Position numbers and translations under genes: made by a program. Shown piece after piece: positions 7,339-64,000 of a stretch of 64,000 nucleotides of DNA. This stretch comes from Imperialibacter roseus (lineage in GTDB: Bacteria > Bacteroidota > Bacteroidia > Cytophagales > Cyclobacteriaceae), in NCBI RefSeq assembly GCF_032999765.1, contig NZ_CP136051.1:1898417-1962416 (forward strand), read 5' to 3'. Every line of letters begins with the position of its first letter. Within the stretch, counting starts at the first letter, position 1. Under the pieces are notes generated by a model. The model made no database searches, had not been told where the DNA came from, and worked only from the letters and a program-made list of their open reading frames with translations.

Positions 7339-8550
7339 TTATCTAATTTGTTTTAAATGCGCTTGTCCTGGTTTTCGATAACGATAGGTTCGGGTTCGAT
7401 GATGAAAAGTTTTCCAGGAATGCCAGAACTCCTGATAAGCCAGAACCCATTTCAGTTGAGCACCAGAAAGCATGCCACGCACACACTCACCCTTCCAATT
7501 CCATTCTGAACCAGTGTTTTTGTCTACTATAAAGTTCGTAGTGTCGCTGAGCGAAAATACCAATGTGTCACGTTCCCAGGCGTGAAACGAAAGACTGTCA
7601 GGCTCCAGGGCAATAAGCAGGCTCGTGGAGGAAATGGTGTCGTTGATCAGTCTGGTTTTAATCAATTCATTCCAGTCATAAGCCTTTGCTTTCTCATCCA
7701 GCGTCACGCCAATAACCCAGGACTTATCGGCCCACGAAGCCGTATCTCTCCCGGTCAACTTGCTCTCTGAGGTGCCTTCATCGTAGTTTTTTAAATTTTC
7801 ATACTTCTCCAGAAAGGCTGTGTCGGGTTGAAGCACCAGTGATTCTGGGTATTTATTTAGCCAGGCACCTAGCGCCATTTGTTCGGAAGGAAGCTCGGGG
7901 AGGGTGGTGCCTGTAAGTGGCCCTGCAACGGCCTCTCCGTTTACCTGTCGCCACCATGACCGGGTGCGGCTGTCTTCAAACATGGCGTTGAAGTGATCCA
8001 TGCCAACTAAACGAAATGTTTCAGGAGTCCCATTAACTTCGGGAGAGAAGATGCGTCCCGTTCTACAGACGGTACAATAGGTGACAATAACGGGCGTGCC
8101 ACCAACTGTGTCTCTCACCTGATGATGGTAACCAATGTTCTCTATGGGGTAAGCTTTGGACTCGCCATTGATTTCTACGCCGAGCACCAGATCAGTCATC
8201 TCATAGCCCGTTTGGCTGGCGGGCACAAATGAAACGGTATTGGGTTGGTAGAATATTTTATCAGCCAGCATTCGAAAGTTGACGGCATAAAAAACGCCCA
8301 GGTACAGAACTATGAAAGTACCAATCAGCAACTTGACTCTTTTTTTGCCTGTTTTGAGAAAATGCCAGGCAGGATAAGCGATCATTAAAAGCCCCGCTAA
8401 GCGAAAATAGCCAATGTTAAAAAACATGAAATAAGCGAAGTCAATACTGTTCATCTGCTGACTCCCAGGAAATGGCATGATGAGGTATACTTTCAATATT
8501 TCGGCTACGATAAGCGTAAAAAATCCGAGAACAAGCAGGAGGGTTTTCAT
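7339..8550 (-). CDS. DUF3179 domain-containing membrane protein
   Basis: 403 residues from the ATG at 8550, which is preferred because it begins a hydrophobic segment (MKTLLLVLGFFTLIV); the longer open frame to 8658 would run into the divergent Uma2 gene. Three membrane helices occupy roughly residues 1-25, 40-65 and 75-95. A DUF3179 domain follows, recognised by ESKAYPIENIGYHHQVRD and the cysteine pair in TYCTVCRTGRIFSP, and by a late SEWNWKGECVRG stretch. The two cysteines look like a thiol or metal site. The biochemical role of the family is unknown. It is transcribed alone; the next minus-strand gene is the sigma factor, about 235 bases downstream. Confidence 0.82.
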   Translation of the reverse strand: MKTLLLVLGFFTLIVAEILKVYLIMPFPGSQQMNSIDFAYFMFFNIGYFRLAGLLMIAYPAWHFLKTGKKRVKLLIGTFIVLYLGVFYAVNFRMLADKIFYQPNTVSFVPASQTGYEMTDLVLGVEINGESKAYPIENIGYHHQVRDTVGGTPVIVTYCTVCRTGRIFSPEVNGTPETFRLVGMDHFNAMFEDSRTRSWWRQVNGEAVAGPLTGTTLPELPSEQMALGAWLNKYPESLVLQPDTAFLEKYENLKNYDEGTSESKLTGRDTASWADKSWVIGVTLDEKAKAYDWNELIKTRLINDTISSTSLLIALEPDSLSFHAWERDTLVFSLSDTTNFIVDKNTGSEWNWKGECVRGMLSGAQLKWVLAYQEFWHSWKTFHHRTRTYRYRKPGQAHLKQIR

Positions 8551-8614
8551 AACTGCATCGGTTAATAAAAGCTTTAATTTGATTAACTTAGTTGAACCAA
8601 ACAAATGTGGCTTT

Positions 8615-9199
8615 ATGCTTAGCGAGTACACTATAGGCGGAAAATGGGTTGAATCCATGACAGACGAGGAGTTTTACACCTTTTGTGTGGAAAACGAGAA
8701 TATTAAGTTTGAGCGTGAGCCCGATGGTCAAATTGTCATTATGTCACCTACAGGATTCAACACGGGGCGCAGGAATGCCAAAATTATTGTCCAATTGAGT
8801 AATTGGAATTCAACGCACAGTTTGGGGGAAGTTGTTGATTCAGATACCGGCTTTTACCTCCCAAACGGGGCTATGCGTAATCCTGACGCTGGCTGGGTTA
8901 GTAATGAAAGGTTAGCCTCAATATCCAAAGCTGAACTGGAAAAATTCCCTCACCTCGTGCCAGATTTCATCATAGAGCTGGTGTCAAAGAGTGACTATCC
9001 TAAAAACCTCGACGCCAAGATGAAGGAGTGGATTAACAATGGCTGCCGCCTTGGCTGGCTGATTGATCCCTTTAATGAGACTGTGACTATTTACTCTCCC
9101 GGCCGGGAACCAGAAGTTATTAAAGGATTTGATAAAAGTGTGAGTGGGGGAGCGGTACTGCCAGGGTTTGAGCTCGATTTGAAGGAATTGAAGGTATAA
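8615..9199 (+). CDS. Uma2 family (DUF820) restriction-endonuclease-fold protein
   Basis: 194 residues from the ATG at 8615; earlier in-frame codons would overlap the divergent DUF3179 gene. The PD-(D/E)XK-type core is visible: MSPTG near residue 43, PDAGWVS near 90, PDFIIELVS near 117-124, a lysine in LDAKMKEW near 135 and WLIDP near 148. Proteins of this family are abundant and multi-copy in cyanobacteria and some Bacteroidota and are presumed nucleases, perhaps mobile, but their target is unknown. The gene is single and lacks a restriction partner. A 64-base divergent promoter region separates it from DUF3179. Confidence 0.85.
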   Translation: MLSEYTIGGKWVESMTDEEFYTFCVENENIKFEREPDGQIVIMSPTGFNTGRRNAKIIVQLSNWNSTHSLGEVVDSDTGFYLPNGAMRNPDAGWVSNERLASISKAELEKFPHLVPDFIIELVSKSDYPKNLDAKMKEWINNGCRLGWLIDPFNETVTIYSPGREPEVIKGFDKSVSGGAVLPGFELDLKELKV

Positions 9200-36471: not shown

Positions 36472-37047
36472 GTGAAGAAAATGTACATCATAGCGGGGCC
36501 AAACGGAGCGGGTAAGACAACTCTGTCTTATTCTATTCTACCTGAAATCTTCCATTGTGACGAGTTCATTAACGCTGACGAAATCGCAAGAGGTATTTCC
36601 CCTCTGAACCCCGAAAAAGCTGGCATCAGAGCTGGCCGTATCATGCTTGAACGTATAAATGAACTCGTTTCAAACGGAGAGTCGTTTGCATTCGAAACAA
36701 CTCTTTCCACCAGGTCATACGGTAGCTTTATTAAACAGGCAATGTCGCAAGGCTATGACACAACACTAGTTTTTCTTTCTTTGGATTCTATTGAACTTGC
36801 AAAACAGCGTGTAAGAACAAGGGTGCTGGAAGGTGGACACAATATACCCGAAGATACTATTGAAAGGCGTTTTTTGAATGGTCTTTCTAATTTTTTCAAA
36901 ATATACAGGTCGCTTGTCACCAGATGGATCTTAGTTGATAACTCGACAGAGAATTTTGAATTTATTGCTGAAGGAGCTGGGGCGGATATCATTATTCGAA
37001 GTGAAGCAAAGTGGTCACAGTTAAAAAACGCATACGATGGGAATTAA
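36472..37047 (+). CDS. Zeta-toxin-like P-loop kinase
   Basis: 191 residues from GTG 36472; the ATG at 36481 is an equally good start. The Walker A motif is at the N-terminus (YIIAGPNGAGKTTLS). It is followed by CDEFINADEIARGISPLNPE and ESFAFETTLSTRSYGSF, which match zeta toxins that phosphorylate UDP-N-acetylglucosamine or related substrates. The arginine-rich stretch KQRVRTRVLEGG would form the lid. A small gene overlaps its end by 11 bases and is the likely partner. The pair is visibly richer in A+T than its neighbours, which suggests transfer. Whether it is a toxin or a metabolic kinase cannot be told from sequence alone. Confidence 0.85.
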   Translation: MKKMYIIAGPNGAGKTTLSYSILPEIFHCDEFINADEIARGISPLNPEKAGIRAGRIMLERINELVSNGESFAFETTLSTRSYGSFIKQAMSQGYDTTLVFLSLDSIELAKQRVRTRVLEGGHNIPEDTIERRFLNGLSNFFKIYRSLVTRWILVDNSTENFEFIAEGAGADIIIRSEAKWSQLKNAYDGN

Positions 37048-48601: not shown

Positions 48602-48840
48602 TTATTTATTCTTCAAATAAATATGCTTGATGTTTTTCTCACCTGATTCTCTGGCTTCAATGATGAAGGCATTCGTGCTTTTGATAAGGGGAGATAGCTT
48701 TGAAAACCCATAATTCCTTGGGTCAAAATCTGTCTTTTTCTTGATCAGGTAACTTCCCAGCGAGCCTAGAAAGGCCAAGCCGCTGTCGTCGGAGATTTCA
48801 TCCACACTTTCTATGAAGGCCTTTATCAGCTTTGCTCACC
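48602..48840 (-). pseudogene. Duplicated 3' fragment of the NYN-LOTUS gene
   Basis: The 67-codon stretch 48602-48805 (VDEISDDSGLAFLGSLGSYL, then IKKKTDFDPRNYGFSKLSPL) is nearly identical to the C-terminus of the gene at 49650-50396. Homology runs on to about 48840, with an 11-base deletion near 48830 relative to the parent. It carries only the OST-HTH/LOTUS domain, not the nuclease. In the same frame and directly upstream lies the VapC-like gene, separated only by its TGA; the stop codon itself lies in the duplicated sequence. A separate short protein starting at 48805 is possible but unsupported. Confidence 0.85.
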
Positions 48841-49222
48841 AAATCACCTCAATTCTACTATATAAACGGAAGTTAGGATCCTTGGATATCACTTTAAAGT
48901 TTTCTGAAATACCCTGAGCGATGATAACCCTGTCAAATGGGTCTTTGTGGTGGTTTTCCAATGTTGACAAGCCGATGGGGTGGTCGAAGTCAAGTGGTAG
49001 AATTTCAAAGCTGTTCTTTATAATTTCTTCTTTCAGATTTGAAAGAGGTATGCCCAAGTTTAGTTTCCCAAGGCTTATCTTAATTGCAATCTCCCAGATT
49101 GAAGCAATGCTAACGAATTTTTTTGTGGTAGAATCCTCAATGGTAGTGCGGGCAGTTGTTGAAAGTTGGTCGTCTCCACCCAAAAACCAAAGGAATGCAT
49201 GAGTGTCCAACAAATGACTCAT
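48836..49222 (-). CDS. PIN-domain ribonuclease toxin (VapC-like)
   Basis: 128 residues. The PIN acidic residues are visible: Asp6 in LLDTHAFLWFLGG, Glu in SIASIWEIAIKISLGKL, and Asp pairs in HKDPFDRVIIAQG and VISKDPNFRLY. It belongs to the HNTH-type VapC group that pairs with DUF2281 or Phd antitoxins. Its start overlaps the stop of the DUF2281 gene by one base (TAATG). The last codons and stop fall at the edge of the duplicated NYN-LOTUS sequence. A+T-rich composition supports transfer. Confidence 0.92.
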   Translation of the reverse strand: MSHLLDTHAFLWFLGGDDQLSTTARTTIEDSTTKKFVSIASIWEIAIKISLGKLNLGIPLSNLKEEIIKNSFEILPLDFDHPIGLSTLENHHKDPFDRVIIAQGISENFKVISKDPNFRLYSRIEVIW

Positions 49223-54188: not shown

Positions 54189-54768
54189 GAGTTTCTGAAT
54201 TTAATTGACTTGTTGTTGAATCAGTTATACATAAATACGGGCAACCCGGGCAGGGTTTGTCATAGCTCAGTCAAGGGCTGTCACGAAATGTCATAAAGTT
54301 GTTGAGAGATGTAAAAAAGGGGGCGGGAAGAGTTTGAAGACCGCAGTCGGGAGACCGGAGATTGCCGGGAGGCGTCGGTACGGCAAGTGGGCTTGCTGCG
54401 GTGGGGCCGTCAGCCGCCGGAAGAGAGGCGGAAGACAGAAGACCGGAGCTTTCTACGGTTAGTTGCAGTACCGACCCTATCGTAACCCCTTAGCCGGCAA
54501 GCCCTGAAAGGGCGTCATACCTTCAGGATGGCGGTGAAGCCCCATCCGATAAGAAGATTGGAAAACAGAAGCCAAGTACACCCCGGTGTCTGACGGCTCT
54601 TTCTCTGTGGCCAGTGGTCGCACCGACACCTACCCTTCAAGCCTTGAAAGGGCGATACACCTTCAGGATGGTGGTGCAGCCCCATCCTCCTCTGCGATAT
54701 GGGTGGAAGCCCCATCCCAATAGCCATACGCCAATTAGCCAATTTCAAATCACCAACTCCTCAACTCC
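54189..54768. other. 580-base G+C-rich intergenic region with repeats
   Basis: No credible gene. From about 54300 to 54480 the sequence is rich in G and purine runs (ggaagacagaagaccgga-type), then it holds the 47-base repeat pair at 54501 and 54641. It separates two minus-strand units (secreted protein and response regulator). Confidence 0.6.
54501..54687. repeat. Two copies of a 47-base intergenic repeat
   Basis: 54501-54547 and 54641-54687 share gcc(c/t)tgaaagggcg, ccttcaggatgg and agccccatcc in the same order and spacing, in direct orientation 140 bases apart. A shorter third piece (ggtggaagccccatccc) lies near 54700. The gccctgaaagggc part forms a small hairpin. Confidence 0.8.
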
Positions 54769-55476
54769 TCAATCAATAATCATCTTATACCCAATGCCAT
54801 GCACTGTCAGGATAATCTTTGGCTCATTGGGGTTGTCTTCTACTTTCTGGCGGAGCTTCAGTATGAAATTGTCGACGGTTCGGGTGGTGGGCTGCGCCTC
54901 GTAACCCCACACATCTTCGAGCAGCTTATAGCGACTCACAATGTCGTTCTTGTTAGCAAGGAGAAACTTCAGGATATCAAACTCCTTGTGCGATAGCTTT
55001 ACCTGCTCGCTCCCCTCGTGGGCCAGGTAGTGCTTAAAGTCGATAGTTAGCCTGCCAATGGAGGCTTTCTCGATATCGTCTGCGTTTCCTGCTGCCCCAG
55101 CTCCTGATTGCCCATCGGTTCTTCTAAGGATGGCCTTTATCCGGGCAATGAGCTCCCTCAGACTGAACGGCTTCGTCATATAATCGTCAGCGCCGATCTC
55201 AAGCCCTACCACTTTGTCGATTTCCTCTCCTTTGGCGGTCAGGAAAATGATAGGCGTTTTGATGCCGAGCTTGCGAGTCTGCCTGCACACATCAAACCCT
55301 GACATTTTGGGCATCATCGCATCGAGCACAATCAGGTCGTACGAAGCCTGCTGAATTTTCTGCAAGCCTTTTTCACCGTCTTCTGCCAGCTCCACGGCAT
55401 AGCCTTCAAACTCCAGGTTGTCTTTCAGTCCCATCCGCATGTGCAGCTCATCTTCAACTATCAATATCTTGGCCAT
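54769..55476 (-). CDS. OmpR/PhoB-type response regulator
   Basis: 235 residues. The receiver domain (1-118) has the acidic pair in LIVEDELH, the phospho-acceptor Asp52 in YDLIVLDAMMPKMSG, and the switch Lys102 in DDYMTKPFS. The winged helix (about 140-235) ends PTTRTVDNFILKLRQKVED and IILTVHGIGYKM. It starts 7 bases after the stop of the histidine kinase, so the two are one operon, kinase first. The target genes are unknown. Confidence 0.95.
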   Translation of the reverse strand: MAKILIVEDELHMRMGLKDNLEFEGYAVELAEDGEKGLQKIQQASYDLIVLDAMMPKMSGFDVCRQTRKLGIKTPIIFLTAKGEEIDKVVGLEIGADDYMTKPFSLRELIARIKAILRRTDGQSGAGAAGNADDIEKASIGRLTIDFKHYLAHEGSEQVKLSHKEFDILKFLLANKNDIVSRYKLLEDVWGYEAQPTTRTVDNFILKLRQKVEDNPNEPKIILTVHGIGYKMIID

Positions 55477-55483
55477 GGTGTTG

Positions 55484-57040
55484 TTATTTCTTTACTAAAA
55501 TAGGAAACATCAGTTTAAAGGTACTACCCTTTCCCGGCTCGCTTTCTACGGAAATTTGCCCGCCATGCGCTTCCATAATGTGTTTCACTATCGACAGCCC
55601 GAGCCCCGCTCCCTGGGTGTTGTAGATATCGCCCTGCGTCACCCGGTAAAACTTGTCGAAGATCTGTTTTAACTTTTTTTCTTCAATGCCCACGCCCTGG
55701 TCTTTAACGGCCACCACGACCCATTGCTCCATCCGTTCTGTAGATATATCCAGGTGTTTGGTGTCGGGGCTGTATTTGATGGCATTGTCGAGCAGGTTGA
55801 TAATGGCTTCCATCACCGACTCCGTGTCTGCCATCATGTTGGGTAAGTCATCCGTGAAGTGGACCTTGTAGGTAAATCCCTTGTTTTCCAGATGAAACGA
55901 ATAGGTGTGGAGCACCTCTCTCACAATGTCGTTAAGCAAAACCGACTCCAGGTGATACGTCTTTTTATTGGCCTCTATCTGAGAGAAATTCAGGATCTTA
56001 TTCACAATATTGGTCAGCCTGCCCGTTTCCTTTACAATGATCTCGTAGTACTCTTTCTTCCTTGTTTCCGTAGTTACCCGCCCCAGCATCAGGGTTTCTG
56101 CGAACATGCTGATGAGCGACAGTGGTGTTCTGATTTCATGAGACACGTTGCTGACAAAGTCCGACTTGGTTTGCGCCAGCTGCATTTCTGCCCTGATGTT
56201 CCTGAAAACCATCGCAAAACCCAATAGCAGCACCATCGACACCATGCCTATCATGATCATGTTGGTGTTGGATCGTTCCTGCATCACCATCTCAATGGAG
56301 TTGCCGGGAATGTAGATCTCCAGTTCGTACTCAGGCAGCAACCAGATGGTTTTGGAGCGTGCCTTGTTGTTCATTAGTGAGTCGGTGGTGTAAATAAGCT
56401 CGCCGGTCACCTTGTTGGATGCCGCCAGCACAAACTCCTCGCCTGCCACCTGTTCCATTTTAGGTGCAATTAGCTCTTCAATGAAGTCGGAAGGGCGAAT
56501 GATCATCACACAGAGCGAATAAGTGTCGGGATTTTCTCCCAGCACCATCAGCAGGGTGTTGAACCGCTCGCCCTCTATAGCCAGCACCTTGTAGGGTTCA
56601 ATTTTCCGAAAGCCAGCCGACCGGTAGCCAGTCATTTTTTTAACCAACGCTGAGTCTTCCCGGATGTGGTTTTCAAGCAGGGTTATGAGTTGTTGTTGGG
56701 GGATTTCGTCTTTGGCGTAAAAGGCCAGCTTTTGGCTTTTTTCCAGCGGAAAGAAAAAGATAGCCGACACCCCCGGGTAACCTTCAAGGATCTCTTTTGG
56801 AAACTCGCCTGCCCCTTTTCTGCTCCAGGCATCGTCAATGCGGGTGGTCATGCTGTTGACCACGTCGTCGGAATATTGATTGATGGAGAACAGGAAGGTG
56901 TCGATTTGCTTGTCGTAGATAGCCTGCATCATGGCCACGCTCTGATTGAGGCTGCGGACTTCGAATATCACTAGTACGCTGATGGGCAGCACAATGACCA
57001 GCACCAGGATAAATGATATTTTAGCAAAAGATGTCCTCAT
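55484..57040 (-). CDS. Sensor histidine kinase, partner of the OmpR-type regulator
   Basis: 518 residues. Membrane helix 1 (about 8-28), a large extracytoplasmic sensor (29-258) of no family I can name, helix 2 (261-279), then HisKA with His301 in VSNVSHEIRTPLSL, the N-box EAIINLLDNAIKYSP, G1 VKDQGVGIEE, F-box IFDKFYRV and G2 GAGLGLSIVKHI. All catalytic boxes are intact. There is no HAMP domain of usual length between helix 2 and HisKA. It is the first gene of the two-component operon; about 180 bases separate it from the divergent gene region. Confidence 0.94.
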   Translation of the reverse strand: MRTSFAKISFILVLVIVLPISVLVIFEVRSLNQSVAMMQAIYDKQIDTFLFSINQYSDDVVNSMTTRIDDAWSRKGAGEFPKEILEGYPGVSAIFFFPLEKSQKLAFYAKDEIPQQQLITLLENHIREDSALVKKMTGYRSAGFRKIEPYKVLAIEGERFNTLLMVLGENPDTYSLCVMIIRPSDFIEELIAPKMEQVAGEEFVLAASNKVTGELIYTTDSLMNNKARSKTIWLLPEYELEIYIPGNSIEMVMQERSNTNMIMIGMVSMVLLLGFAMVFRNIRAEMQLAQTKSDFVSNVSHEIRTPLSLISMFAETLMLGRVTTETRKKEYYEIIVKETGRLTNIVNKILNFSQIEANKKTYHLESVLLNDIVREVLHTYSFHLENKGFTYKVHFTDDLPNMMADTESVMEAIINLLDNAIKYSPDTKHLDISTERMEQWVVVAVKDQGVGIEEKKLKQIFDKFYRVTQGDIYNTQGAGLGLSIVKHIMEAHGGQISVESEPGKGSTFKLMFPILVKK

Positions 57041-57278
57041 AGAGCGATGTCAATTGGGAGATACGCAAGTTTCGAACTAAGGTAGCACAATGATGACATT
57101 TTTTTACGATTGAGCTCAGTAGGCATTGGCTTTCGATCATCCTGGCCCAGGGTTCAAACGCTGGACTATGATGATGGAAAGGGAGAAGGGCGGCTAGGCG
57201 GGTGCCAGAATTTCAAGGCGTTTCATGCATTCATTTGGGGTTATCCTTATCTTGGCCGTTTATCCATCGAAACCTATC

Positions 57279-58373
57279 ATGAGCCCATTGAACATTGACC
57301 CAAATATTAAAAGAGCTACCACACTGCCCGCTTCCTTTTACCGAGACAGCCATGTGTTCGAAAGCCTCAGGGAGAAAGTCTTCGCCCGGTCGTGGCAGTG
57401 GATAGGGCAGGAGAGTCAGGTAAGCCTTTCGGAGAGTGTCTATCCGCTTACTTTGCTGGAAGGATATTTGGACGAGCCGCTTTTGCTGACAAAGGACAGT
57501 GACGAGCAAGTTCGTTGCCTGAGCAATGTATGCACACACCGGGGAGCACTGCTTTGCATGAACCCTGGTAGGGCAAAAAAGCTCGTTTGTCAGTACCACG
57601 GACGGCGGTTTGCCCTCGATGGCAAGTTTGAGCACATGCCGGAGTTTGGTGAAGCAGAAAACTTTCCCAGGGACTGCGATAACCTGCCTGCGTTAGAGCT
57701 GCGGAAGTGGTTTGGCTTCCTTTTCACCTCGTTGGCTCCGGCTTTCGATTTTCAGCAGGTGATTGATGTGATGCAGGAGCGGGTAGGTTTTCTTGACCAC
57801 ACGAAGTTCCGTTTTGCGCCGGAATTCAGCAGGGACTACCTGGTCAACAGCCACTGGGCTCTGTATTGCGACAACTACCTCGAAGGCTTTCACATCCCGT
57901 TTGTGCACAAAGACCTGAACGCTGTGCTCGACTACGGCACATACAAGACAGTGGTGTACGACCATTGCAACCTGCAGATAGGGTACGGCAAACCCGGCAG
58001 CGACTGCTTTGAACTGCCCGAGGGCCACCCTGACTCAGGCAAGATCGTTTCAGCCTGGTATTACTGGGTTTTCCCCAATATGATGTTTAACTTTTATCCA
58101 TGGGGGCTGTCTGTCAACATAGTGAAGCCTCTCTCCATTGGAAGAACCAAAGTGAGCTTCCTTACTTATATATTGGATGAGGAGCGCTACAAGCAAGGAG
58201 CGGATGTGATGACCGACAAGGTAGAACGGGAAGACGAGTTTGTGGTGGAGGCTGTGCAGAAGGGCATTCGGTCCCGGTTTTATCCGGGAGGCCGGTTCTC
58301 ACCAACACGAGAGAAAGGCGTGCATCATTTTCACACCTTGCTAGCGAAGTTTGTTCAAAATACCGAGAAATAG
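57279..58373 (+). CDS. Rieske [2Fe-2S] non-heme iron oxygenase, large-subunit type
   Basis: 364 residues from the ATG at 57279. The Rieske domain (about 30-140) has the C-x-H and C-x2-H ligands in NVCTHRGALLC and LVCQYHGRRF. The catalytic domain has the iron site in YCDNYLEGFHIPFVH (two histidines) and a late acidic ligand region in EREDEFVVEAVQKGI, as in the carnitine/choline-type oxygenases. The C-terminus ends GVHHFHTLLAKF. The usual reductase partner is not encoded next to it, so electrons must come from an enzyme elsewhere. The substrate is unknown. It is transcribed toward the peptide/kinase operon, 71 bases away. Confidence 0.92.
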   Translation: MSPLNIDPNIKRATTLPASFYRDSHVFESLREKVFARSWQWIGQESQVSLSESVYPLTLLEGYLDEPLLLTKDSDEQVRCLSNVCTHRGALLCMNPGRAKKLVCQYHGRRFALDGKFEHMPEFGEAENFPRDCDNLPALELRKWFGFLFTSLAPAFDFQQVIDVMQERVGFLDHTKFRFAPEFSRDYLVNSHWALYCDNYLEGFHIPFVHKDLNAVLDYGTYKTVVYDHCNLQIGYGKPGSDCFELPEGHPDSGKIVSAWYYWVFPNMMFNFYPWGLSVNIVKPLSIGRTKVSFLTYILDEERYKQGADVMTDKVEREDEFVVEAVQKGIRSRFYPGGRFSPTREKGVHHFHTLLAKFVQNTEK

Positions 58374-58444
58374 GTATGTAGCGATCATGGTAAACCGGTA
58401 CCTTTCGATGTAACTAATATTTTCACTTACTAACCCTTATTATT

Positions 58445-58573
58445 ATGAAAAAGCTGCCGATCAATGATTTATTTATTTACAGTGCTGAATTCCGGTCTAG
58501 TAGTTCTTTGGGAGGAGGCGATCCGCCCCCGCCGCCGCCGCCAGAACCAGATCCTGATGACGATAAAAAATAG
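58445..58573 (+). CDS. 42-residue peptide with Gly3-Asp-Pro7 and acidic tail, upstream of a TPR kinase
   Basis: ATG at 58445, stop TAG at 58571-58573. The peptide runs MKKLPINDLFIYSAEFR, SSSSLGGGD, seven prolines, then EPDPDDDKK. It has a charged leader, a hydrophobic stretch (DLFIYSAEF), a Leu-Gly-Gly-Gly junction and a rigid acidic tail, and no known domain. The kinase GTG at 58574 abuts the stop directly and its ATG at 58580 lies 6 bases on, which suggests coupled translation. The layout recalls leader/core peptides of signalling or ribosomally made natural products, but no maturation enzyme is adjacent. An alternative is that the G/C-rich stretch is only an RNA hairpin (ggaggaggcg with cgcc runs). 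Confidence 0.6.
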   Translation: MKKLPINDLFIYSAEFRSSSSLGGGDPPPPPPPEPDPDDDKK

Positions 58574-58579
58574 GTGCAA

Positions 58580-60535
58580 ATGACTCGACGAATCGTTACT
58601 TTGTTACTATTCTCTTTTTTTTATTTTAACACGAATAGTCAGAGAATTGAGAAAAGGGCTGATGTAGACAGCCTTTTTTTGGTTTTTGACAATCTTAGTG
58701 TGACAAATCCGGATTCAGCGCTCGAAATGTCAACCAAACTTGAAATGTTATTCGCTGACCGTAATGACACAGTCAAACTTGCTCAAATGTACCGGAGTAT
58801 TTCCATGATACATAGAGCTAAATCTGACTATTTAAAGCTCATAGAGTTTGGGAACAAATCCATAGAGCTTTATCGTCAGCTGGGTGATTCGCTGCGGGTG
58901 GCATTTAACTATAATAATGTGGCAACTGCGCATCAATACTTAGGCCATCGAAAGCAATCGTTAGAACTTCTTCTGCGTTCGTTGGAGCTAAGAAAACTAT
59001 ATGGTTCACCTGAACAGTACACTGTTGGCCTGCATTCGCTTGGTAACTACTTTATGGAGATAGGTGAATACGAAAAATGTGAACGATATTATATGGAAGC
59101 CATTGAAATTTTGGAAGAGCTAGATGACATCTCCAGACTTTCAGATATATATACGAGCATGGGCGTTCTTTCCGGACTAAAAAAGGACTACGAGAAATCA
59201 CTTGAGTTCTACGAAATAGCCTTGCGGATGTATGAAGAACTGGGAGAAGAGTCCCAGTTTCCAGGTATATGGTATGCTTTGGGCTACAATTTTTTCAAAC
59301 AAGAAAATTTCTTGAAGGCGAAGGCTTATTTTCTTCGTGCTGACGATAGTGATTTGAAACTGACTGACAGGTATAAATTCTGCTATAACCTGCTCATGTT
59401 ATCTATAACTGAGCTTAAACTGGAGAATTATCAAAGTGCCTTGAAATACGTCAGAGAAGCAGATGAGTTGGCTAGTGAGATAGGGGCTCTTTCATATAGT
59501 AGAGAAGCGCAAAGCATTTTAAATGATATTTTTTTAGAGTTAGGCGACTACAAACAGGCTTATCAAAGCTTGCGACTTTACCGTGAATTGTCGGACTCTC
59601 TTTATAGCATAGATAAAGAAAACACTGTCAAAGAACTCACCATCAAATACGAAACCGAACTCAAGGAACAAGAGATACAAAAACTCTCCTCCGAAAAAGA
59701 GCTTCAGGAAAAAGAAATACTTCTCGCCACCACAGAAAAGAATGCCTACATGATTGCCGTGGTGTTTGCGATTGCCCTGGCGCTGGCCATTCTGGCGTTT
59801 TTCACGCAAAGGCAAAAAGCCATGCAGCTACGAAGCGAAAAGGCGCTGGCGGAGCGAAATACGCAGATCAATTCACTGCTTCAGGAACAAGAGGTCAACA
59901 CACTCAGCGCCTTACTCGAAGGGCAGGAGAAGGAACGCCTTCGTATTGCTGAAGAGCTGCACGACAGGCTGGGGAGCCTGCTTTCTGCCATAAAACTCAA
60001 CTTTAACGGCTGGATAGGGAAGCGGGATCTGAGTCAGGACGAGGTGGAGGACTATTCTGCCAAAACCAGCGGTCTGCTCGATGAAGCCGTTACGGAGGTA
60101 AGGCGGGTGTCGCACAATCTTTCCACCGGTCAGGTGTCTCGCTATGGCCTGGTCGGATCCATGGAAGACCTGGCGGCCACCGTCAATCGCTCAGATAGCA
60201 TCAAAATGAAAGTATTGCATTTCAACCTCGGCGAGCGCCTGCCCATCGAGCTGGAAACTGGCATTTACCGTATCGTGCAGGAAATGCTGGCCAACGTGCT
60301 GAAGCATGCTAACGCCCAAGAATTCACTGTTCAGTTGAGCAAGACAGACAATAGCGTTATCCTGACGGCCGAGGATGATGGTAAAGGATTTGACTACAGG
60401 GAGGCCAGAAAGCGGGGAGGCATTGGCCTTCATAATATTGACAATAGGGTAAAGAAATTCGGCGGGCAGTTCAGCGTGGACTCCTCACCGGGAAAAGGGA
60501 CAATTTTCACATTTGAATTTCCATTAGAGGCATGA
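58580..60535 (+). CDS. TPR-containing sensor histidine kinase (HisKA_3 type)
   Basis: 651 residues from the ATG at 58580; a GTG at 58574 gives two more. An N-terminal signal or anchor (IVTLLLFSFFYFNTNS) precedes an array of TPR repeats (about 50-350: YNNVATAHQYLGHRKQSLEL, ALGYNFFKQENFLKAKAYF). A coiled coil (VKELTIKYETELKEQEIQKL) and one membrane helix (about 388-408) lead to the HisKA_3 box EKERLRIAEELHDRLGSLLS (His461) and the HATPase_c with LANVLKHANAQEF, DDGKGFDYREAR and GGIGLHNIDNRV. The sensor should lie in the periplasm. Its regulator overlaps its stop by 4 bases. A paralogue of the same length follows at 61618. Confidence 0.92.
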   Translation: MTRRIVTLLLFSFFYFNTNSQRIEKRADVDSLFLVFDNLSVTNPDSALEMSTKLEMLFADRNDTVKLAQMYRSISMIHRAKSDYLKLIEFGNKSIELYRQLGDSLRVAFNYNNVATAHQYLGHRKQSLELLLRSLELRKLYGSPEQYTVGLHSLGNYFMEIGEYEKCERYYMEAIEILEELDDISRLSDIYTSMGVLSGLKKDYEKSLEFYEIALRMYEELGEESQFPGIWYALGYNFFKQENFLKAKAYFLRADDSDLKLTDRYKFCYNLLMLSITELKLENYQSALKYVREADELASEIGALSYSREAQSILNDIFLELGDYKQAYQSLRLYRELSDSLYSIDKENTVKELTIKYETELKEQEIQKLSSEKELQEKEILLATTEKNAYMIAVVFAIALALAILAFFTQRQKAMQLRSEKALAERNTQINSLLQEQEVNTLSALLEGQEKERLRIAEELHDRLGSLLSAIKLNFNGWIGKRDLSQDEVEDYSAKTSGLLDEAVTEVRRVSHNLSTGQVSRYGLVGSMEDLAATVNRSDSIKMKVLHFNLGERLPIELETGIYRIVQEMLANVLKHANAQEFTVQLSKTDNSVILTAEDDGKGFDYREARKRGGIGLHNIDNRVKKFGGQFSVDSSPGKGTIFTFEFPLEA

Positions 60536-61173
60536 GTGATATTAAGGTGTTGATAGCAGATGACCATCATTTGATGGTAGATGGCATCAAGTCGTTGCTA
60601 GACGATGTGGAGGGGCTGGAGATTGTTGGTGTGGCCAATGATGGAGAGGAAACCATGGTGTTTGTTTCCAGAAGGCCCGTTGACGTGATTTTGCTCGATT
60701 TGCAAATGCCCAAGATGAACGGCTTTCAGGTAGCAGAGCAGATCAAAAAGAAGTACCCGAAAATCCGCATCCTCGTGCTGACCATGTACGACAAGCCTGG
60801 CTTTATCCGTGAGCTGCTGGAGTCGGGTGTGGATGGCTATGTGCTGAAAAACACCGGCAAAGAGGAGCTTGTGCAGGGAATTATGACCGTACACAAGGGT
60901 GAGAAATTCTTTAGTAAGGAGGTTTCCGGGATTTTCTATGACAGCTTCCGGAAGGAGAAGGATGAAAACACCTTTCTCACTAGCAGAGAGATTGAAATCA
61001 TCAAACTGATAGCGCAGGAGCTTACTTCTCAGGAAATAGCCGAAAAGCTATTCCTCAGCCACTTTACGGTAGACACCCACCGCCGTAATATCATCAACAA
61101 GCTGGGAGTGAAAAACACAGCTGGCCTTATCCGATACGCCTATGAGAATGGGTATTTTGATTTGCAGAACTAG
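60532..61173 (+). CDS. NarL/LuxR-type response regulator
   Basis: 213 residues. The receiver domain has VLIADDHHLMVDGIKSLL, the phospho-acceptor Asp56 in DVILLDLQMPKMNGF and the switch region YVLKNTGKEEL. The LuxR helix-turn-helix (about 145-205) reads LTSREIEIIKLIAQELTSQE then LSHFTVDTHRRNIINKLG. It overlaps the TPR kinase by ATGA. It may also serve the second TPR kinase, which has no regulator of its own in the window. Confidence 0.95.
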   Translation: MSDIKVLIADDHHLMVDGIKSLLDDVEGLEIVGVANDGEETMVFVSRRPVDVILLDLQMPKMNGFQVAEQIKKKYPKIRILVLTMYDKPGFIRELLESGVDGYVLKNTGKEELVQGIMTVHKGEKFFSKEVSGIFYDSFRKEKDENTFLTSREIEIIKLIAQELTSQEIAEKLFLSHFTVDTHRRNIINKLGVKNTAGLIRYAYENGYFDLQN

Positions 61174-61185
61174 GGGGTTGAAACT

Positions 61186-61505
61186 CCAAATAGCAAAAAG
61201 CAAACGTCAAATAAGTTCCAGGGCGCAAAACAGGAAATTTCAAACAGGCGCTTTATCGAGGCTGCATCTGATCGTTGCCTGATCGAAGCTATTTCATAGT
61301 CCTTCAGCTGGCGAAGAGAAATTCGCTATTTCATTTTCCTGTTCCCAGCTGTTACTTTTTCGTGATCCCCGTGGTCTGTCCCCCGACAGACCTTGAATCA
61401 ACTCCTTTGCGGTGCCTACGGGCCGTCAGGGGACAGCCCAAGGGATCGGAGCTTCAGCTATTTGAATTTGTGATTTACTTGAGATTTGACGTTTGCGATT
61501 TGTCT
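61186..61505. repeat. Intergenic repeat unit with inverted CAAAT-rich arms
   Basis: ccaaatagcaaaaagcaaac and onward (61186-61240) resembles 63820-63870 in the same orientation, and also, inverted, 61461-61504. The inverted arms enclose the hairpin repeat at 61369-61443. Such CAAATCTCAAAT-type tracts also occur at about 39630-39735. The 444-base gap 61174-61617 holds no gene; the A+T-rich end (61506-61617) should hold the promoter for the second kinase. Confidence 0.65.
61369..61443. repeat. Two-hairpin repeat, copy 1 (GGTCTGTC / GGCTGTC type)
   Basis: A 75-base unit made of ggtctgtc/gacagacc and a second stem near ggccgtcaggggacagccc. The left arm of the first stem (ctgtcccc) can also pair with the right arm of the second (ggggacag), giving an alternative long fold. 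It recurs at 63631-63705 and 63893-63967. Confidence 0.85.
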
Positions 61506-61617
61506 TTCTCAGTTTCAACTACCACTATTTTTACTAGTTTTAGTTTTGCCAGTTATTTCTGTTAAAACAGAGTATATAAATGGTGCATATTCTCCAGCAA
61601 GAAACCAATTGATTCAA

Positions 61618-63573
61618 ATGAAACTGAAGCATTTCGTTCTGATCGTTATTCTCGGATTTTGCTGCCAAACTCATGGGCAGGGGTTGGAAAAAAGCACTGA
61701 AATTGATAGTCTTTTTTCGCTAGTCATTAAACACCGAGTAAGAAGCCCTGATTCTTCACTAGAAGCAGCAAAACATCTCTTGCCATTGCTCGAGGGCATT
61801 GAAAGAAATGATCAACTTGCGGATCTATATTGGAATATGTCAACAGCGTATTTTTATAAGAATGAGTATTTAAATGTTATTGACTATGGGATTAAGTCGA
61901 TAGACATTTTTCGAAAATTAGGAGACTCCTTGCGGGTGGCTGATAATTACACCACTCTGAGTAGCGCTTATAAATATCTGGGACATAGAAAAGAGGCCCT
62001 TGAGTACAACTTACGTTCGGTCGAATTAATGAAACAATATGGAAAGCCGACTGATTATGCAACATCCCTCTATGCGTTGGGTAATTATTATATGGAAACT
62101 AAGGAGTACGACAAGTGCGAGACTTATTATTTAGAAGCTTTAACGATTCTTGAGGGAGCAGATTCACCTGGTAAGCTCGCTGACATGTACTTCAATATGG
62201 GAGTTCTATCAGCGGTTAAAAAAAGGATAGATGAGTCCTCCGGCTTCTATGAAAAGTCTCTTGGTTTATATCAAGCGCTTGGCGACGAAGCCAGCTACCC
62301 AAAAGTCTGGACAGCTATTGGGTACAATTTTTATGTGCAAGGAAAATTTACTAAAGCCAAAAGCTACTATTTAAAGGCAGAGCAGGGACTTTCAATATCA
62401 AGTAGTACCTACAGTTACTGTTATAATCTGGCGTCTTTGTCACGCACTGAGTACATGCTTAAGAACTATGGGTCGGCATTGAACTACGCAAAAAAAATGG
62501 AAAGAGTAGCTAGTGATGTTGGAGTTCTTAGGTTTAGTATAGATGCCCAAGTTCTTTTTCGACAAGTATATGATGCCCAGGGAGATTTACCCAAAGCCTA
62601 TGCAAGCCTGCAGCTCTTCCACATACTCTCCGACTCGCTGCAGAATATCGAAAAGGAAAAAGTTGTCAAAGAACTCACCATCAAATACGAAACCGAACTC
62701 AAGGAAAAGGAAATAGCGAAGCTCACCTCGGAAACGAAGGCGCAGGAGCAGGAAGTGCTGCTGGCTACATCAGAAAAGAATGCCTACCGGGTGGGTATTG
62801 TGTTGGCAGTGGCGCTGGCCATTGCGGTCTCGGCCTTTTTTGCACAACGGCAAAAGGCCAGCCAGCTCAGAAGTATGCAGGCGCTAACAGAACGCAATGT
62901 TCGCATCGATGCGCTTTTGAAAGAGCAGGAGGTAAGCTCGCTCAATGCCCTGATAGAAGGGCAGGAAAAGGAACGCATGCGAATAGCTGAGGAGCTTCAC
63001 GATCGTCTGGGGAGTATGCTGTCGGCGATTAAACTGAATTTTATTAGCAGCACTGTCAAAAAAGACGTAGAACAAAAAAGCCCCGAAAACGAGACAGTCA
63101 AAACCACCCAAATGCTGGATGAGGCGGTGACCGAAGTGAGGCGCATTTCTCATAACCTCTCTACCGGTCAGGTATCCCGGTATGGGCTGGTCAGCTCCAT
63201 GGATGACCTGGCAGCGAGGATCAACCAGTCGGACAGCGTGGCCATGAAAGTGATGCACTTTAACCTGGAAGAACGGCTGCCGGTAGAAATGGAAACAGGT
63301 ATTTACCGTATCACCCAGGAAATGCTGGCCAATGTGCTCAAACATGCGCATGCCAGCGAGTTCATTGTTCAGCTGAATAAGACAGAGAACAGCGTGATAC
63401 TGACTGCGGAAGACGACGGAATAGGCTTCGACTACAAAGAAGCCAGAAGAAGGGGTGGCATTGGCTTGCAGAATATTGAAAATCGGGTGAAGAAGTTCGG
63501 AGGGCAGTTCAGTGTTGACACCGCCCCGGGTAAAGGGGCTATTTTAACTTTTGAGTTTCCGCTGGAAGCCTGA
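61618..63573 (+). CDS. TPR-containing sensor histidine kinase, paralogue of the gene at 58580
   Basis: 651 residues from the ATG at 61618, exactly the length of the upstream paralogue, which supports this start over the open frame from 61486. A signal peptide (FVLIVILGFCCQTHGQ) precedes TPR repeats (YTTLSSAYKYLGHRKEALEY, AIGYNFYVQGKFTKAKSYY). The coiled coil VKELTIKYETELKEKEIAKL, a membrane helix (about 388-408), HisKA_3 with His461 in EELHDRLGSMLS and HATPase_c (LANVLKHAHASEF, DDGIGFDYKEAR, GGIGLQNIENRV) follow. The kinase halves are closely alike, whereas the TPR sensors differ much more. No response regulator follows before the window ends. Confidence 0.92.
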   Translation: MKLKHFVLIVILGFCCQTHGQGLEKSTEIDSLFSLVIKHRVRSPDSSLEAAKHLLPLLEGIERNDQLADLYWNMSTAYFYKNEYLNVIDYGIKSIDIFRKLGDSLRVADNYTTLSSAYKYLGHRKEALEYNLRSVELMKQYGKPTDYATSLYALGNYYMETKEYDKCETYYLEALTILEGADSPGKLADMYFNMGVLSAVKKRIDESSGFYEKSLGLYQALGDEASYPKVWTAIGYNFYVQGKFTKAKSYYLKAEQGLSISSSTYSYCYNLASLSRTEYMLKNYGSALNYAKKMERVASDVGVLRFSIDAQVLFRQVYDAQGDLPKAYASLQLFHILSDSLQNIEKEKVVKELTIKYETELKEKEIAKLTSETKAQEQEVLLATSEKNAYRVGIVLAVALAIAVSAFFAQRQKASQLRSMQALTERNVRIDALLKEQEVSSLNALIEGQEKERMRIAEELHDRLGSMLSAIKLNFISSTVKKDVEQKSPENETVKTTQMLDEAVTEVRRISHNLSTGQVSRYGLVSSMDDLAARINQSDSVAMKVMHFNLEERLPVEMETGIYRITQEMLANVLKHAHASEFIVQLNKTENSVILTAEDDGIGFDYKEARRRGGIGLQNIENRVKKFGGQFSVDTAPGKGAILTFEFPLEA

Positions 63574-63788
63574 AAGAGATGAGAGGGGGCGTCAGGCATT
63601 TGTTGAAATGTCAAAAACCAACCTCCAACTCCGTGGTCTGTCCCCCGACAGACCTTGACGAAAGCCTTTTGCGATGTGTTTGGGCTGTCAGGGGACAGCC
63701 CAAGGTCACAAGACGAGCCAAGGTGTGGAAGCCTGAAAGAGATGGTTGGGGTTGTCAGACATCTGTTGAAATGTCAAAAATCAACCTC
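63563..63788. repeat. 63-base direct repeat of the kinase gene's 3' end
   Basis: 63563-63625 (tggaagcctgaaagagatg through the stop and on to gttgaaatgtcaaaa and caacctc) is repeated with few changes at 63726-63788. The first copy includes the last codons and stop of the kinase gene. A copy of the two-hairpin repeat sits between them. Confidence 0.85.
63631..63705. repeat. Two-hairpin repeat, copy 2
   Basis: ccgtggtctgtcccccgaca with gacc, then gggctgtcaggggacagccc, both stems perfect. It matches copy 1 closely except for the linker. Confidence 0.85.
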
Positions 63789-63892
63789 AAATAAGCAGTT
63801 GAGCTGCTACAAGGAAACCCCAAATAACAAATGACAAATCTCAAATAAGCTCCAAGGCACAAAATGAGAAACCTCGAAAACAACCTCCAACT

Positions 63893-63967
63893 CCGTGGTC
63901 TGTCCCCCGACAGACCTTGACTAAACTCCTTTGCGATGCGTTTGGGCTGTCAGGGGACGACCCAAGG
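63893..63967. repeat. Two-hairpin repeat, copy 3
   Basis: Same unit as copy 2, preceded by the same caacctccaactccgtgg flank. Its second stem has a change (ggggacgaccc for ggggacagccc) that weakens the pairing. 63789-64000 otherwise holds only the CAAAT-rich repeat at 63820-63870, with no gene. Confidence 0.85.
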
Positions 63968-64000
63968 TCAGAGGACGGCCCAAGTGTCGGTGGATCTGAT

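Follow-up and report, generated by a model that had tools for sequence, protein, structure and literature searches.

What is the function of a short open reading frame of 42 codons that lies directly before a histidine kinase gene with a TPR sensor in Imperialibacter roseus? The frame is found in the stretch of 64,000 nucleotides analysed here (the window) and, as stated in the initial annotation, runs on the forward strand from an ATG at 58445 to a TAG at 58573; it encodes the peptide MKKLPINDLFIYSAEFRSSSSLGGGDPPPPPPPEPDPDDDKK, and its upstream neighbour is a Rieske oxygenase gene (57225-58373). The gene that follows (58580-60535, on the forward strand, as are the peptide segments, kinase domains, regulator and kinase 2 described below) codes for a protein of 651 residues, kinase 1, in which domain searches recovered HisKA_3 (59933-60127) and HATPase_c (60254-60529) domains. 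It is overlapped by 4 nt by a gene for a NarL-type response regulator with Response_reg and GerE domains (60532-61173), which shares 96.7% amino acid identity with its counterpart in the congener used for comparison, Imperialibacter sp. EC-SDR9. Residues 22-347 of kinase 1 (58643-59620) constitute a TPR sensor, whose predicted periplasmic location follows from an N-terminal signal-like segment and a transmembrane segment recognized by eye at residues 392-408 (59753-59803). The assembly of TPR sensor, transmembrane segment, HisKA_3, HATPase_c and NarL-type regulator is that of FimS-like sensor kinases, and the domain assignment and gene overlap had been described correctly at the outset. The stop of the small frame had also been said to touch the kinase start; only a possible GTG start at 58574, which has no counterpart in the congener, does so, and the ATG at 58580 lies 6 nt beyond the TAG.

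A frame of at least 40 codons ending at most 10 nt from the kinase start arose in 259 of 20,000 mononucleotide shuffles of positions 58374-58579. The orthologue in the congener (locus L058) has 40 codons and occupies the same place, with the frame intact across a net difference of two codons and the kinase ATG 7 nt past its stop. The two genes differ by 10.5 silent changes over 28 sites and by 14.5 amino acid changes over 92 sites (Fisher P = 0.016), so the expectation that the frame would be kept before the orthologous kinase is borne out, with relatively fewer amino acid than silent changes. Judged by its sequence, the 42-codon frame is thus more than a chance occurrence and appears to be a real, coding gene. 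Its first 17 codons (58445-58494), which fall inside a 72-nt run identical to the congener (58423-58494), specify a leader identical in both peptides, and codons 18-42 (58496-58573) specify a variable tail. The two features singled out at first fared differently: the proline run is kept (Pro7 in the window, Pro8 in the congener), but the triple glycine is not, SSSSLGGGD in the window being replaced by FGDPPAGDD. Trimming after Gly-Gly, as proposed in the initial annotation, is unsupported because the congener's peptide lacks the GGG, and we reject it; of the marks of a double-glycine leader, Gly-Gly is not conserved and no C39/PCAT-type exporter was seen next to the gene. The hydrophobic segment that had been noted proved short and mixed, and by eye is not a signal peptide; the peptide also contains no cysteine.

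The window peptide did not match any Pfam, NCBIfam or PHROGs model. When 59 relatives were searched for homologues, 13 gave a match of any kind with E no higher than 10, of which only that of the congener was convincing (7e-11), the runner-up (0.003) being a longer proline-rich frame. At E up to 0.05, a profile of the peptide (A1) returned 4 of 128: two from Imperialibacter and two weak ones, one of these with stops; a search of genome contigs found 1 locus, and a DNA search of 195 genomes contributed nothing beyond short chance matches. An RNA element was likewise ruled out: folding of the region gave z-scores of +1.21 and +1.08, indicating no structure beyond that of shuffles, and the one Rfam match was far under threshold (23.4 of 228.9 bits). 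The earlier suggestion that an RNA hairpin alone might be conserved thus does not apply.

Comparison with the congener, which gives two Imperialibacter alleles in all, revealed a sharp-edged divergent block at 58496-59610 (right edge approximate), with about 35-61% nucleotide identity in most 75-nt windows. This block of about 1.1 kb begins at codon 17/18 of the peptide and ends where the TPR sensor ends. The flanks are collinear at 94.8% (54638-58543) and 92.5% (59588-63964) identity, and within 54638-63964 only the peptide tail and the sensor interrupt the collinearity. In kinase 1 itself the sensor (residues 25-338) is 41.7% identical to its orthologue with silent sites saturated, the coil and transmembrane region 86.1%, and the kinase domain 98.8% with a dS of 0.33; the sensor is equally far from that of the paralogous kinase 2 (46.2%). 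Across the window, 41 of the 44 ORFs of at least 120 residues match the congener's contig, kinase 1 being the lowest (68%) and the next at 82%. The three without a match are at 7339-8658, 36481-37047 and 48836-49222, the second of which, by eye, starts like a P-loop ATPase and the third like a PIN-domain toxin.

Kinase 2 (61618-63573, identified by domain search) has no recognised peptide gene before it. Its sensor segment (61618-62660) shows a dS of only 0.009 relative to the congener amid values of 0.25-0.34 over the remaining gene (0.25 in the kinase domain), and has therefore been recently shared between both lineages. Related short repeats, partly GGTCTGTC...GACAGACC, flank kinase 2 at 61369-61443, 63631-63706 and 63893-63968; they cross-match the congener and could aid recombination. 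The genome encodes a third TPR kinase (L077/L140, G000:C1:2719500-2728500), which has no close orthologue in the congener (best 29-33% identity) and is preceded by a protein of about 134 residues without visible signal, upstream of which is a protease-like frame with GDSGS.

The structure model of the kinase 1 sensor (326 residues, mean pLDDT 92.8, pTM 0.82) shows a TPR superhelix made up of helices only. Its best folds are the TPR domains of LGN, with TM-scores of 0.68-0.83 for the better matches, and the matched LGN structures are mostly peptide-bound, with Frmpd4, Inscuteable or NuMA. TPR domains also sense peptides in the RRNPP receptors, such as Rap, which are cytoplasmic, whereas the TPR domain here lies between a signal-like segment and a transmembrane segment (by eye). 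Rap chains match the sensor's sequence profile at about 1e-14 to 1e-12, which reflects general TPR similarity, and Rap phosphatases are absent from the best 50 folds. A simple charge complementarity of tail and sensor was not seen: the sensor has a net charge of -14 and the tail of -4, so the sensor is negative like the tail and does not favour an acidic ligand.

We surveyed the kinase loci of relatives by eye for short upstream genes. These were clear at 4 of 12 loci in a first set (L071, L072, L075, L076) and 5 of 60 in a second (L081, L083, L085, L087, L119), and short peptides of these kinds were seen at none of the 28 loci of a phylum-wide set; some places recur under more than one locus id, and loci whose longest frame starts inside the kinase could not be judged (for example L074, L088, L091, L111, L187, L191, L200, L210 and L213). 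Since most of the surveyed TPR kinases, judged by eye, have no such peptide, the association is a minority feature and not the rule. The expectation of homologues before TPR kinases in the Cytophagales thus holds for position, which is occupied by different short peptides, but not for sequence, with none convincing outside Imperialibacter. A single TPR kinase at L071 (G114) is preceded by a tandem pair of related genes for lipoprotein-like peptides. Proteins of about 113-131 residues, without visible signal and in several cases with acidic C-termini, directly precede TPR kinases at L189, L201, L202 and L203 (f43, a different family of the phylum) and, in some relatives, at L093, L100, L159 and L160, and are a possible third type of ligand.

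The same anatomy was found in two other genera of the family, with unrelated peptides: proline-rich and acidic in g78, lipoprotein-like in g76. In g78 a kinase match is present in 15 of 19 genomes, and 11 loci have a peptide of 51-70 residues whose frame closes somewhere from 58 nt upstream of the kinase start used to 4 nt beyond it. These peptides share a plan: a leader some 22 residues long, in most of them a turn (D-P-x-P or similar), an acidic, glycine- and proline-containing tail and a group-specific end, which is PPPPVPPVSGN-like (L148-L150), PPPGSGT-like (L155-L157), GPGR/GPGK (L151, L152) or GPSR/GPSK (L153, L154). A profile built on 10 of the 11 peptides (alignment A3, L158 left out) matched 9 of 295 family genomes, all of g78, once each and always adjoining the kinase. 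All 13 loci checked have a regulator after the kinase, gene order agrees around two loci, and no exporter or protease was seen at the two loci read. Mean amino acid distances are 0.69 for the sensor, 0.24 for the kinase and 0.29 for the response regulator, and in the pair L151/L153 the kinase is 87% and the sensor 28% identical. In g76 all 10 genomes have the kinase, each with a peptide of 46-49 residues 35-81 nt upstream, of the pattern MKxLKxxKxx...[SA][AG]CE[LM][IV][ED]EP... followed by a variable tail, the lipoprotein signal being recognized by eye. One pair (G298/G282, loci L178 and L180) is about 96-100% identical around the locus, begins to differ at the first base of codon 37 in the 49-codon peptide gene, continues to do so across the sensor (55% amino acid identity), and agrees again downstream (coil and transmembrane region 98.9%, kinase 95.8%); a second diverged patch (75-82% nucleotide identity) lies inside the kinase domain. 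Silent changes exceed amino acid changes per site in both genera (P = 3e-7 in g78, 0.001 in g76), and no peptide of these genera matches a Pfam or NCBIfam model, that of ComX included.

Partial Mantel tests were used to separate the contributions of sensor and kinase; they are lenient for related sequences, and the tail and sensor sequences are neighbours on the DNA. In g78 the C-terminal 12 residues correlate with the sensor given the kinase (r = 0.54, P = 0.0006) and not clearly with the kinase given the sensor (0.19, P = 0.085); in g76 the tail likewise follows the sensor given the kinase (r = 0.42, P = 0.008; converse 0.22, P = 0.069). The leader follows the kinase given the sensor in both genera (0.66 in g78 and 0.83 in g76, both P = 0.0001), and additionally the sensor given the kinase in g78 (r = 0.51, P = 0.006; 0.07, P = 0.36 in g76). 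Leader and tail separate cleanly in g76, only partially in g78. These tests included all 10 g76 loci and 11 of the 18 g78 kinase matches, leaving out L159 and L160 (upstream genes of 119 and 131 residues), L161 (58-codon ORF, kinase more distant), L163 (start inside the gene) and L162, L164 and L165 (other paralogue group). The median ratio of sensor to kinase dN was 4.8 in 10 pairs with a peptide and 2.0 in 9 pairs without a recognised one (P = 0.0008), the pairs being hand-picked and non-independent, with many dS values saturated and 'without' judged by eye. Left out here were six paralogue pairs and, besides these, L148/L150, L149/L150 and L155/L157 with a peptide and L164/L162 without; two of the 'without' pairs, L121/L123 and L133/L135, share ORFs of 33 and 50 codons located 25 and 39 nt upstream. 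Variable sites of the g76 sensor were not enriched on the presumed concave TPR face (0.507 versus 0.499, P = 0.38, with a hand-set repeat register).

Tail and sensor, as far as sequences can establish it, form a sharp-edged block in Imperialibacter, the pattern recurs in two further genera with unrelated peptides, and tail and sensor covary beyond what the kinase domain accounts for; this is evidence of covariation and not of binding. To this extent the initial proposal that the TPR domain senses the peptide is partly supported, and the change of tail and sensor as one unit in three genera is what a ligand-receptor pair would be expected to show. We accordingly favour, with a probability of roughly 0.63, the reading of a pherotype-like locus that resembles agr and comQXP but is built of unrelated parts, with the tail as cognate ligand of the periplasmic TPR sensor. 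Peptide gene, kinase and regulator would form a single signalling unit, in which the conserved leader might serve delivery or processing (that of g76 looks like a lipoprotein route), the tail would bind the TPR superhelix of the kinase of the same allele, and the kinase would then signal via the NarL-type regulator. Tail and sensor would be inherited or exchanged as one cassette, replaced by recombination in the conserved flanks, and lineages would therefore carry different ligand-receptor specificities, as do agr groups and comQXP pherotypes. The roles of leader delivery and joint replacement are read from sequence patterns; we infer the direct binding of tail to sensor, the release of the peptide from the cell, its sensing by neighbours and the regulator's control, and the window peptide, which has no visible signal peptide, would presumably be exported.

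A rather unlikely alternative is that the peptide, instead of signalling between cells, binds the sensor of the cell that makes it and there acts as an inhibitor or reports on the export of lipoproteins. The lipoprotein signal seen by eye in g76, by virtue of which the peptide would stay anchored, and the lack of a visible exporter or protease at the two g78 loci read are in keeping with this, but a purely internal pair does not readily explain why alleles should vary so much between flanks that are about 99% identical. It is distinctly improbable that the sensor was swapped for other reasons, the left breakpoint falling by accident inside a small gene of other or no function: any recombination edge must fall somewhere, and the recent sharing of the kinase 2 sensor means that sensor segments move in any case, but in two genera whose peptides are unrelated the edge separates leader from tail, and the groups of g78 C-termini match the sensor groups. 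Least probable is a translational leader, in which ribosomes would stall on the poly-proline frame and thereby set kinase translation through coupling, the peptide itself being inert. In its favour, poly-proline stretches stall ribosomes, the Pro7/Pro8 run is kept and only 6-7 nt separate stop and kinase ATG; against it, the g76 peptides occupy the same place without poly-proline and 35-81 nt away, the tails covary with the sensor and not with the kinase domain, and there is no stable RNA structure.

If the ligand-receptor reading is correct, polymorphic peptide-receptor kinase loci, established in Firmicutes, also occur in Bacteroidota with a different receptor fold, and FimS and similar kinases of unknown signal become testable via the short gene just upstream. 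The paired alleles are ready-made swap experiments, and peptide ligands too short or variable for homology searches could be found in near-identical genomes as divergent blocks starting inside a small ORF. More tentatively, at somewhat below even odds, one may envisage a pherotype system of Gram-negatives, in which Bacteroidota secrete short lineage-specific peptides for periplasmic TPR kinases, the cassette of tail and sensor splits near-identical strains into signalling groups, and the peptide part was invented repeatedly (proline-rich and acidic, lipoprotein-like, perhaps proteins of about 115 residues) before the same type of receptor.

Among known systems, the double-glycine RiPP clusters of Bacteroidales have short precursors, one with a histidine kinase and response regulator and two with TPR-like genes, according to the portions of the report available (PMC10352776); they carry PCAT/rSAM genes and Gly-Gly, whereas here the GGG is unconserved and no such genes were seen adjacent. 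The FimS kinase of Porphyromonas gingivalis also has a periplasmic TPR sensor, and its signal is unknown, the authors suggesting a polypeptide; the sections of that paper at hand name no peptide gene for FimS/FimR (PMC11053733). The NCBIfam FimS model scores 61.7 bits here, far under its cut-off of 600. A full-text search of the open-licence literature on Bacteroidetes, Bacteroidota or Cytophagales, as far as its extracts extend, returned no account of a TPR kinase paired with a peptide. Allelic groups of agr are set by a hypervariable region spanning agrB, agrD and agrC, as excerpts of one account have it (PMC10482373); relative to staphylococcal agrBDCA, the locus here has no AgrB among the neighbours scanned, a linear proline-rich and acidic tail without cysteine, and another sensor fold. 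In comQXP the signal-encoding C-terminus of ComX is the most variable part and the N-terminal domain of ComP is substantially variable, as described in extracts of PMC4008528. The Bacillus ComQXPA system shares with this locus a short pre-peptide adjoining a membrane kinase and regulator (ComX, ComP and the NarL-type ComA), but this locus belongs to Bacteroidota and its sensor is a periplasmic TPR superhelix, and no ComQ-like gene was seen among the neighbours within 57225-63573, which holds the Rieske oxygenase, the regulator and kinase 2. By its parts the locus belongs to neither comQXP nor agr; what it has in common with their mode of working is a hypervariable block shared by peptide and sensor next to a conserved kinase domain.
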